Origin: Nanoarchaeota archaeon
GTDB lineage: Archaea; EX4484-52; LFW-46
Reading direction: 5' to 3'
Length of the DNA: 28,804 bases
Assembly: GCA_018897155.1 (NCBI GenBank)
Contig: JAHILE010000055.1
Coordinates: 1 to 28,804, forward strand
The translations under genes were made by a program, and so were the position numbers. Under the pieces are notes generated by a model. That model had not been told where the DNA came from. It did no database searches and saw nothing but the letters and a program-made list of their open reading frames with translations. Positions 5,932-21,103 of the stretch are shown here, in pieces; position 1 is the stretch's first letter; each line of letters opens with the position of its first letter.

Positions 5932-6166
5932 GTGAATTCAAGAACTTTTGATAACAATCTTTTCGAGTCCGGTCGCATCGCTCTCGGCTTTTTGAAACTC
6001 AGAGTTTTTAAAAGCTTTCCGCATAGCGGAATGATTTTCGACTTCGTTGAAAAATATTTGAATTCACAATTTCATGAAAATCTTAATGATTTTCAAGCTT
6101 TTGAACTGCTGTTCAAAATAGTTAATCGCCAATATAATAACAATCAAAAAATGTGCGATTAACTAT
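5932..6166. repeat. Hairpin array A
   Basis: A stretch of successive perfect or near-perfect hairpins follows the protease gene. An outer stem GTGAATTCAA (5932-5941) pairs with TTGAATTCAC (6058-6067) and encloses three inner hairpins. These are about 5987-6015 (AAACT/AGTTT, extended by CTTTT/AAAAG), 6017-6031 (TTCCGC, ATA, GCGGAA) and 6035-6053 (TTTTCGAC, TTC, GTTGAAAA, one GU pair). Then come 6075-6095 (TGAAAATC, TTAAT, GATTTTCA), 6099-6118 (TTTTGAAC, TGCT, GTTCAAAA) and 6118-6166 (12-base arms ATAGTTAATCGC and its complement, A-rich loop). A frame of 83 codons is open through it (5911-6162), but it is built of the hairpins and I do not call it a gene. Parts match array D and the insert in ileS. 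Confidence 0.85.
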
Positions 6167-12673: not shown

Positions 12674-13029
12674 ACGAATATTACCTCTGCTCTTTTAAGC
12701 GCATCTCTGCCGCTTTCTTCATCATATAATTCTGCAGGAATACCGCCTGCTGCATCAGGGTATCTTGTTATTATAAAATCTGGAGTGAGTTTTCTTGCAA
12801 CCGAAATGAGTTCTTTTGGTAGAGAGACCGCCATTGCAAGTTCGAAAAGATTGTGTGTTTTAGGAGCCGTGTCATTCTTTGAGAAGATAAAATACGCTTT
12901 CAGGGCTTTTTCAGCGCATTGCTCTGCAAAGAAAGCGCCAGCATAGTAATTCTTTGCGGTGAGGCAGTCTCGCGAGGTTTTCAAATCCGCTTCTGCCTGC
13001 TTTATCCAGTTCTCGGCTTCTTTGCGCAT
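12646..13029 (-). CDS. HEPN-domain protein
   Basis: Starting at ATG 13029 the product is 127 residues, MRKEAENWIKQAEADLKTSR and on. A TTTATATATT box about 25 bases upstream supports this start over a longer frame to 13092. The family hallmarks are AENWIKQAEADLKTS, NYYAGAFFAEQCAEKALKAY and THNLFELA, followed by RYPDAAGG. The RX4-6H ribonuclease motif of HepT-type toxins is not evident, so it may not be an RNase. It overlaps the nucleotidyltransferase gene and is its likely partner. Proteins of this HEPN branch often accompany minimal nucleotidyltransferases in archaea. Confidence 0.85.
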   Translation of the reverse strand: MRKEAENWIKQAEADLKTSRDCLTAKNYYAGAFFAEQCAEKALKAYFIFSKNDTAPKTHNLFELAMAVSLPKELISVARKLTPDFIITRYPDAAGGIPAELYDEESGRDALKRAEVIFVWVKGKLEK

Positions 13030-13175
13030 ACTTTTTATTGCATTTGGGAATATATAAAGCAGGATGTTTTGTGAAGCTGCGCGCCAACACACTAGTTCTG
13101 CATAAGTTTGAGTACGGGAAAGGGGTTTATCAATAAGAAAATTGCTTTAAATATTTGTGTGTGAACAGGGATATT

Positions 13176-18839: not shown

Positions 18840-19298
18840 TTTTCAACCAATAGTTGAAAATCTTCAAGCCATTGGCGAGATGATTTAAAATCACAATTCG
18901 TTGGCGCGATTTGCAATGTTGAACACATTTTGTTTCAAAAATATATTTGCTTAAAATCTTTGGCGAGATTTTAATCAGATTGTTGGTAAGTTTTTTGGCA
19001 TTTTCAAGCTTGTCTTGAAAAGTTTTCCACGGAGTGGAATAAACTTAATTGATTTGGCAATCAATTGAAGTTAGATTTTCTGTTGTATTAGTTTTAACTT
19101 TGTTGCTCAAACAAACTTGGCGGTTCATTCGAGTTGTTCTGTTGTAAGGAATACTTATACTTTGGCATAGATATACTTTTCGTTTGTGTATCGTATATAT
19201 TGAACAATATACAACAATACAGAAATTGCCTAAAAGAACAGGCAATTTCTGTCTTTTTCAGTTTGGAATCGCAGCAAGCACAAATTCAAACTGAAAAA
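18840..19298. repeat. Hairpin array C
   Basis: Perfect hairpins are at 18840-18860 (TTTTCAAC/GTTGAAAA), 18951-18974 (TTAAAATCT/AGATTTTAA), 19001-19021 (TTTTCAAG/CTTGAAAA), 19025-19039 (TTCCAC/GTGGAA) and 19047-19066 (AATTGATT/AATCAATT). Further perfect ones are at 19193-19212 (GTATAT/ATATAC), 19220-19251 (CAGAAATTGCCT/AGGCAATTTCTG) and 19254-19298 (TTTTTCAGTTTG/CAAACTGAAAAA). A motif TTGGCG(A/C)GAT occurs three times (about 18873, 18901 and 18960). The last two hairpins share their stems with two in array D, in the opposite order. T-rich sequence follows the 19220-19251 stem. Confidence 0.8.
19220..19258 (+). terminator. Terminator-like stem-loop inside array C
   Basis: A 12-bp perfect stem (19220-19231 with 19240-19251) with loop AAAAGAAC is followed by GTCTTTTTC-like T-rich sequence. 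It has the shape of an intrinsic terminator, but archaeal termination depends mainly on T-tracts, and the stem also belongs to the repeat family. Its role is therefore uncertain. Confidence 0.3.
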
Positions 19299-19522: not shown

Positions 19523-20623
19523 ATGGAATCTATCATACAAAGGGCAGTGTCAAATCAGGCAAGTAAGAGCGCACTTAGCAATAAGTCGCTGGACGAATTC
19601 GTCGGCTCAACCGATGCCAAAATAATGGTTGTCGGATGCGGCGGCATGGGAACAAACGCAATTAACCGGCTAGCGGCTGTAGGCGTTGTGGGCGCAGAGA
19701 CAATTGCGCTTAACACGGATATGAAGCATCTAAAGACCATAAACGCAGACAGGAAAATCCTTATCGGCCAGGAACTCACAAAGGGTCTTGGAGCAGGAGG
19801 ATACCCGAATGTCGGAAAACAGGCTGCTGAAGAGTCTATCAATGAAATAAGGGAAGCTCTTCGCGGAACAGACATGGTGTTTCTTATCGCAGGTATGGGC
19901 GGCGGGACAGGAACAGGATGCGCGCCAGTTGTAGCTGAAGTCGCAAAGGCGCAGGGTGCAATCGTCATTGGTGTATGCACCATGCCATTCAAAATAGAGG
20001 GCGCAAGAATTCACAAAGCAGAGGACGGCCTTGCAAAGCTAAGGCAGCACTGCGACACAGCAATAGTTATTGAAAACGACAAGCTTGTCGAAATCGCGGG
20101 AAACATGCCGCTGCAGCAGGCATTCGCGGTGGCAGACGAGATTATCGTGACAATGATAAAAGGAATTACCGAGACAATATCAACTCCGTCTCTTGTCAAC
20201 CTCGACTACGCTGACGTAAAAGCGATAATGAAAAACGGCGGTGTGGCAATGATTGGAGTTGCGGAATCCTCAAGCGCAGCACGTGCACGTGAAGCAGTGG
20301 AGAAAGCCATGGCAAACCCGCTTCTTGATGTGGACTACAAGGGCGCAACAGGAGCATTGGTGCACATAACCGGAGGAAGCGATCTAAAGCTCGAGGAGAT
20401 TACGGAAATCGGCGAATATGTCGCAAGAAACCTCGACGCAGGAGCTCAGACAATCTGGGGGGCGAGAATCGACGACAATATGAAAGGTGCGCTAAGAGTG
20501 ATTACAATAATCACTGGTGTGCGCTCGCAATATGTCCTTGGTCCTCAGTCTGCTGAAACTACAAAAGTTTCCTCAGGCATGACCAGCACATTAAACACTC
20601 TAGGAATCTCAGTAATACGATAA
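19523..20623 (+). CDS. ftsZ: Cell-division GTPase FtsZ
   Basis: This 366-residue tubulin homologue polymerises into the division ring. The N-terminal GTP-binding half shows VVGCGGMGTNAINRL and the tubulin signature GMGGGTGTG (124-132). The T7 catalytic loop is NLDYADVKAIM, with both aspartates. The C-terminal core ends in RVITIITGV. The protein stops soon after the core (TSTLNTLGISVIR), so there is no long disordered linker as in bacteria; archaeal FtsZ proteins are often this short. GGGGAT lies 5 bases before the ATG, and ATTTATAATT near 19441-19450 may be the TATA box. Hairpin arrays lie on both sides. Confidence 0.96.
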   Translation: MESIIQRAVSNQASKSALSNKSLDEFVGSTDAKIMVVGCGGMGTNAINRLAAVGVVGAETIALNTDMKHLKTINADRKILIGQELTKGLGAGGYPNVGKQAAEESINEIREALRGTDMVFLIAGMGGGTGTGCAPVVAEVAKAQGAIVIGVCTMPFKIEGARIHKAEDGLAKLRQHCDTAIVIENDKLVEIAGNMPLQQAFAVADEIIVTMIKGITETISTPSLVNLDYADVKAIMKNGGVAMIGVAESSSAARAREAVEKAMANPLLDVDYKGATGALVHITGGSDLKLEEITEIGEYVARNLDAGAQTIWGARIDDNMKGALRVITIITGVRSQYVLGPQSAETTKVSSGMTSTLNTLGISVIR

Positions 20624-20662
20624 GAGATAAAGCAATTGAAGACAGTTCATGAAAATCCTTTC

Positions 20663-21065
20663 GCAAGCTTTGCTTGCTCTAGGCTTTTTGGGTTACGCCC
20701 AAAAGCTTGCCGCGAAAGCGGCATGATTTGAGGACTTAATGTCCTCAAAATCCTTACGGATTTTCAAGCTTTTGAAAGTCATCTCGTTCGCTTTGCGAAC
20801 TCGAAGCTTTTCAAGTTCTTTTGAACTTGAAAATCTTGCTCTGCAATTTATTGCGAAGTTTCGGCTTTCAAAATAACACTGCCTTCTTACATACCTTAAA
20901 ATCTGCCAAATAAAAGCAGGGGCCAAAAAACATGCGCTTCTTTTGAAGGACAGCATCGGATTTTGGCTCCGCGTTATTTTCAGTTTGGGTCTATATTCCG
21001 TAGCTTTCTGCGGTTCATCCAAACTGAAAAGATAGAAATTGCCTACGACAATTTCTTTATCTTTT
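20663..21065. repeat. Hairpin array D, downstream of ftsZ
   Basis: About eleven hairpins cover 400 bases almost without gaps: 20663-20677 (GCAAGC/GCTTGC), 20686-20704 (TTTTGGGT/GCCCAAAA), 20708-20723 (TGCCGC, GAAA, GCGGCA), 20729-20747 (TGAGGAC/GTCCTCA), 20748-20763 (AAATCC/GGATTT) and 20786-20800 (GTTCGC/GCGAAC). Then 20808-20833 (11 bp, TTTTCAAGTTC arm), 20843-20854 (GCAA/TTGC) and 20919-20970 (10-bp outer stem with one GU pair and nested CTTC/GAAG). Last are 20977-21030 (TTTTCAGTTTGG/CCAAACTGAAAA with nested 20998-21013) and 21034-21056 (AGAAATTG/CAATTTCT). Loops are mostly 3-5 bases. The array begins 40 bases after the ftsZ stop, so it may be in the ftsZ 3' UTR. Confidence 0.88.
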
Positions 21066-21068
21066 TTA
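21027..21068 (+). terminator. Terminator-like stem-loop at the end of array D
   Basis: AAAAGAT (21027-21033) and AGAAATTG (21034-21041) pair with CAATTTCT (21049-21056) and, after a two-T bulge, ATCTTTT (21059-21065). A run of T follows. The shape and position suit an end for the ftsZ transcript, though it is also a repeat-family hairpin. Confidence 0.35.
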
Positions 21069-21103
21069 ATTTACGTAGTTCATATTTTCTTAGGCGTATT
21101 CCA

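Follow-up and report, generated by a model that had tools for sequence, protein, structure and literature searches.

The hairpin array that follows ftsZ in the 28,804-nucleotide archaeal contig analysed here (the window) is very probably a composite of small mobile palindromic elements that was built by repeated nested insertion, the elements belonging to a family that is defined by structure and resembles the Rickettsia palindromic elements (RPE). FtsZ is 92% identical to that of the uncultured archaeon LFW-46, after which the nearest sequences come from MAGs labelled Candidatus Woesearchaeota; this places the host among DPANN-type archaea. All genomes used for comparison are drafts, and most are probably metagenome assemblies.

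RNA folding of positions 20640-21070 gives -151.8 kcal/mol against -99.8 ± 6.2 kcal/mol for dinucleotide shuffles (z -8.5), a value equalled by none of 100 shuffles, so that the comparison with shuffled sequence proposed in the first-pass annotation came out far in favour of the array. The z value is -8.3 for the reverse strand and -9.7 with DNA parameters, and in a scan of the whole window by 200-base segments, the eight that fold best include four starting at 20601-20901. The helix list contains ten terminal hairpins together with enclosing stems, and 68% of the bases are paired. About eleven tandem hairpins had been described at first inspection; the hairpins are there, but the arrangement is not purely tandem, since the stems 20650-20766 and 20770-20873 enclose others. 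The 11-bp stem with a TTTT loop and the GAAA tetraloop hairpin mentioned in the same description are found at 20808-20833 and 20708-20723, while the proposed start 40 bases past ftsZ has to be corrected to about 16-26 bases after the stop codon (20623). The array lies in the intergenic space where ftsZ and an acetyltransferase gene converge, and contains at least two families, the AAAGC/GATT units (20647-20873) and a sequence-conserved CAGTTTGG/GAAATTGCC pair (20980-21064). A tRNA/tmRNA scan of the window found neither, and Rfam searches at gathering and permissive thresholds gave nothing above chance, the best hit being Clostridiales-1 (E 0.17, far under the cut-off).

The units of the array are nested. 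Its first alpha unit is read as split by a compound that consists of a gamma unit, a central hairpin, a second alpha unit and a capping hairpin, and the direct repeat AAAATCC at 20652-20658 and 20747-20753 stands at either end of this insert. The exact zeta motif occurs four times in the own genome and once in the same-genus genome G001, and is absent from the rest of the 34 genomes of the phylum that were surveyed for motifs. The zeta double hairpin upstream of ftsZ is composed of GAAATTGCC/GGCAATTTC and CAGTTTGG/CAAACTG, so two zeta elements bracket ftsZ. Coordinates are collected in the table.

Table. Features of the window that bear on the hairpin array (G000, own genome; a dot marks features without assigned strand)
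Feature	Position	Strand	Evidence or remark
ftsZ	19523-20623	+	Pfam PF00091, PF12327; upstream neighbour of the array
Composite nest of AAAGC/GATT units	20647-20873	.	Fold, helix list, repeats
Outer alpha unit TCATGAAAATCC...GGATTTTCAAGC, split by insert	20647-20769	-	Repeat D4; helix 20650-20766
126-bp compound	20652-20777	.	90%-identical copy at G000:C50:27066-27195
Gamma unit AAAGCCTAGAGCAAGC/GCTTGCGAAAGGATT with A.A, G.A, A.G mismatches	20654-20687	-	
Central hairpin GGCTTTTTGGG/CCCAAAAGCT	20682-20707	.	Helix list
Alpha unit AAAGCTTGCCGCGAAAGCGGCATGATT	20702-20728	+	
Capping hairpin GATTTGAGGAC/GTCCTCAAAATC	20725-20752	.	Helix list
Enclosing stem TTTTGAAAGTC/GGCTTTCAAAA, containing beta unit and two hairpins	20770-20873	.	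Helix list
Beta unit AAAGCTTCGAGTTCGC/GCGAACGAGATGACT with tandem G.A/A.G	20777-20810	-	
Hairpin with 11-bp core stem, TTTT loop	20804-20837	.	Helix list
Hairpin GCTCTGCAA/TTGCGAAGT	20838-20859	.	Helix list
Long imperfect hairpin, 28 pairs in fold	20908-20979	.	Helix list
Zeta element: CAGTTTGG/CCAAACTG hairpin, GATA, GAAATTG/CAATTTC hairpin, T-rich end	20980-21064	+	
Second zeta element, upstream of ftsZ, opposite orientation	19222-19298	-	
Alpha unit in ileS, in frame, 60 bp = 20 aa	15806-15865	+	Boundaries ± 3 bases
Further alpha unit (6072-6100) and unit at 6011-6036	6011-6100	.	

Comparison of copies side by side reveals a modular structure. The core unit consists of two hairpins, TTTT-[stem]-loop-[stem]-AAAA-GCTTG-[stem]-loop-[stem]-CATGA, and in many copies TTTT comes next. 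Its junctions are constant and its stems vary in sequence: 79 filtered units have 42 distinct second-hairpin stems. In motif matches from the fetched stretches, taken with no pairing filter, 91% of the first four inner positions of the arms form Watson-Crick pairs, against 45% when the 3' arms are shuffled (maximum 58% in 1000), which bears out the early impression that stems differ from one hairpin to the next while pairing is preserved. Sister unit types have common AAAGC...GATTT ends and, at a constant position ahead of the free stem, a tandem G.A/A.G mismatch that in many cases follows an A.A. This mismatch occurs in 56 of 418 candidate strings, whereas shuffled halves give a mean of 7.5 (maximum 18) and the complementary T.C/C.T form is absent. 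The purine mismatches mark one strand as the folding one. A strand test on the stems gave a slight excess of G.U over A.C (11 vs 4, small numbers).

A hundred or so copies of the family, if not more, lie scattered through the own genome (1.43 Mb, 62 contigs). Searching this genome with the 431 bases of the array region yielded 79 short matches distributed over some 40 places, and pieces of the array thus recur elsewhere, as the first-pass annotation had asked to be checked. At the DNA level the same query matched G001 and, among 39 other relatives, gave a single weak match in one. With the pattern AAGCTTG-N(6-36)-CATGA the spread is wider: against the reversed pattern, a control that is imperfect for compositional bias, there are 74 vs 2 occurrences in the own genome, 105 vs 0 in G001 and 22-58 vs 0-5 in most genomes of family f7, with enrichment that is clear in part of the f4 and f3 genomes, where it reaches 25, and weak in f2, f5 and f6. 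Eight motif loci were inspected outside the genus: four carry the full two-hairpin unit, and the remaining four match other sequence by chance, which makes counts close to those of the control untrustworthy. Copy number is exaggerated by the broad pattern AAAGC-N-GATTT (686 vs 122), since a strict pairing filter passes only 11 of 96 listed strings. After ftsZ, LFW-46 carries a different hairpin array (z -6.2); LFW-46 and G001 are possibly one genome. Viral carriage was considered and rejected: the beta pattern had no match in viruses and phage records yielded none, and of the 110 matches to the alpha pattern 80 were inspected, two of which were paired and none canonical, as expected of chance.

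Units have been gained in frame within the genus. Seven genes, housekeeping genes among them, contain in-frame unit insertions of 16-43 residues that are lacking in the G001 ortholog. In ileS, located in the window, the 20 extra residues are absent from G001 and from ten further genomes. The other insertions measure 22 residues in uvrA, 16 in an Mre11-like gene, 43 in a Fic gene, where an alpha unit is nested in a beta unit, 19 in a radical-SAM gene, 30 in a glycosyltransferase gene and about 35 in ksgA. In ksgA and the radical-SAM gene the insert is located within an A tract, and the Mre11-like site reads CTGG-AAAAT-[43 bp]-AAAAT-GCATC; the empty site would have held a single AAAAT, to judge from the filled sequence, G001 having diverged there. 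Some insertions predate the split between the own genome and G001 because an RqcH element is common to both. The dispersed copies and the filled and empty sites in orthologous genes support the suggestion, made at the outset as one of three, of a mobile palindromic family. Separately, three near-identical tandem beta units, with KSSRSAIASLEAFEGSLT repeated, stand at the start of the N-terminus of a predicted protein at L059 (G000:C59:2155-2919), an in-frame tandem expansion. In rpiB (L157:394-930) an alpha unit is N-terminal; the usual MKIAIASDHAG start reads LKIAIASDHAG and an in-frame ATG lies upstream.

The other two early suggestions, a structured 3' UTR and a source of small RNAs, are variants of a reading in which the hairpins are functional RNAs of one dispersed class, acting as 3' UTR structures, terminators, translation leaders or small RNAs and maintained by selection at many genes. 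Strand-specific purine mismatches and covarying stems are what such an RNA would show, and some long-loop hairpins directly precede start codons. The genomic location speaks against it. In stretches fetched around matches, which are not an unbiased sample, and with dicodon-scored ORFs as gene calls, 93 of 107 units are intergenic and 14 intragenic; they are equally frequent near starts and near stops (29 each) and are present in all gap types. A terminator reading was rejected since a bias towards convergent gaps is absent. Of the 14 intragenic units, 12 have the AAAGC strand antisense to the gene, for which the simplest reason is that the other orientation has stop codons (CTTGA, CATGA). Given also that presence and absence vary within the genus and that an Rfam match is lacking, neither the 3' UTR nor the small-RNA proposal is supported, and we regard a functional RNA class as improbable. 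Many first hairpins, which have a 13-17-base loop of the form CATTC..CC..TTGGG, stop exactly in front of an ATG start codon (L032, L040, L043-L046 and others); on the mRNA strand their loop contains an SD-like GGTGAT or GAATGAT.

With mobile elements as the preferred reading, the questions of target and enzyme arise. A clean target duplication is seen at one site alone, AAAAT in the Mre11-like gene. A genome-wide direct-repeat test gave 19 vs 15.5 for shuffled sequence, indistinguishable from a general T-tract preference. A minority of units, five of 68, is flanked by outer palindromes of at least 6 bp, where 0.9 are expected and 500 shuffles gave at most 4. The stem of the first hairpin might have been the target flank copied in inverted form; this idea was abandoned, both arms lying inside the insertion in ileS and in the Mre11-like gene.

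A more specific version of the mobile-element explanation names the enzyme, a Y1 (HUH) transposase acting on single-stranded hairpins, and takes the units to be REP/RAYT-type elements or derivatives of IS200/IS605. If a folded single strand is what the enzyme recognises, constant junctions with free stems would be accounted for, and the own genome has three Y1 genes. However, the Y1 family occurs in 7 of the 34 draft genomes and is missing from most of the element-rich f7 genomes, no unit ends were seen as termini when the flanks of the three Y1 genes were inspected by eye, and the GTAG or CGTC tag is absent. We consider this version unlikely. Reverse transcriptase does not track the units either, being present in 1 of 34 genomes; the enzyme searches covered Y1 and reverse transcriptase.

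Palindromes could also arise without mobility if template switching between the arms (quasi-palindrome correction) made them and kept them perfect in place, which would yield perfect pairing with drifting stem sequence. Such a process would erase the conserved G.A mismatches, and it is contradicted by the recurrence of constant junction motifs across genomes, by filled and empty sites in which whole units were gained in frame, and by the repetition of the 126-bp compound elsewhere at 90% identity. As a full explanation it is very improbable, but it may contribute to stem turnover.

We suggest that a trans-acting enzyme recognises the folded single strand that bears the purine mismatches, probably through the constant ends AAAGC/GATTT and AAGCTTG/CATGA and the tandem G.A. 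Insertion would take place at A/T tracts and in some cases into the loop of a palindrome already present. Insertions would nest and grow into arrays where they are harmless, as in the ftsZ/acetyltransferase convergent gap, and copies in genes would survive only where the reading frame stays open. It is possible, and we propose it tentatively, that this is a mobile-element class identified by its folded single strand with almost no conserved stem sequence, spread across an archaeal phylum, moved by neither a Y1 transposase nor a reverse transcriptase and tolerated in frame in essential enzymes.

RPE are among the closest known systems. They are small palindromic selfish elements that occur in frame in unrelated, mostly housekeeping protein genes, where the protein tolerates them, and also between genes (PMC10969869, where Ogata 2000 and Ogata 2002 are cited on RPE). 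The archaeal units share with them the palindromic structure and the in-frame insertion in unrelated protein genes, here the seven genes with empty same-genus orthologs. They differ in the archaeal host and in length (48-130 bp vs about 150), in being two hairpins with constant junctions and free stems where RPE have a sequence consensus, and in the conserved tandem G.A mismatch and the nesting into arrays. The NCBIfam RPE models gave no matches for ileS and five insert regions. REP, BIME and REPIN sequences are likewise abundant short palindromes, paired in clusters; they are mostly extragenic, and of the archaeal units in the fetched stretches 93 of 107 are. The archaeal units lack the GTAG/CGTC tag, having AAGCTTG/CATGA and AAAGC/GATTT as feet, their stems are not sequence-conserved, they insert in coding sequence and they have no consistent Y1/RAYT partner. 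The RepRanger survey of REPs in archaea does not mention DPANN or Nanoarchaeota (PMC12306157). With MITEs the units have in common that they are non-autonomous, short, dispersed, probably moved in trans and directed to A/T-rich targets, but they have no conserved terminal inverted repeat of a known IS, and a clean duplication at one site. Coding palindromes, hairpin sequences inside protein genes, are described in the mitochondria of Nematomorpha (PMC6649704), and bypassed mitochondrial hairpins inside protein genes of Magnusiomyces are cited in that paper. Those systems are organellar and their repeats either belong to the sequence of the gene itself or are bypassed by translation, whereas the archaeal units are added and read in frame.

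A description of such elements in these archaea was not found in the literature, which is weak evidence as our coverage was partial. To our knowledge, protein-invading palindromic DNA among cells is a feature mainly of Rickettsia and their kin; if the present reading is true, it extends to DPANN-kind archaea. Since stems vary while pairing and mismatches stay, the family offers a natural experiment on recognition by structure alone. The pairs of filled and empty genes offer a direct test of how essential enzymes accept foreign peptides, and the conserved feet a handle for finding the mobilising enzyme.

Two further loci show units in other settings. At L038 (G000:C48:58964-59121) a gamma unit lies between the apparent halves of a CsaA-like tRNA-binding protein gene, with the frame broken. 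At L054 (G000:C23, about 12847-13138) hairpin units surround what by eye looks like a tRNA-Met gene, and a zeta element is present on one side.
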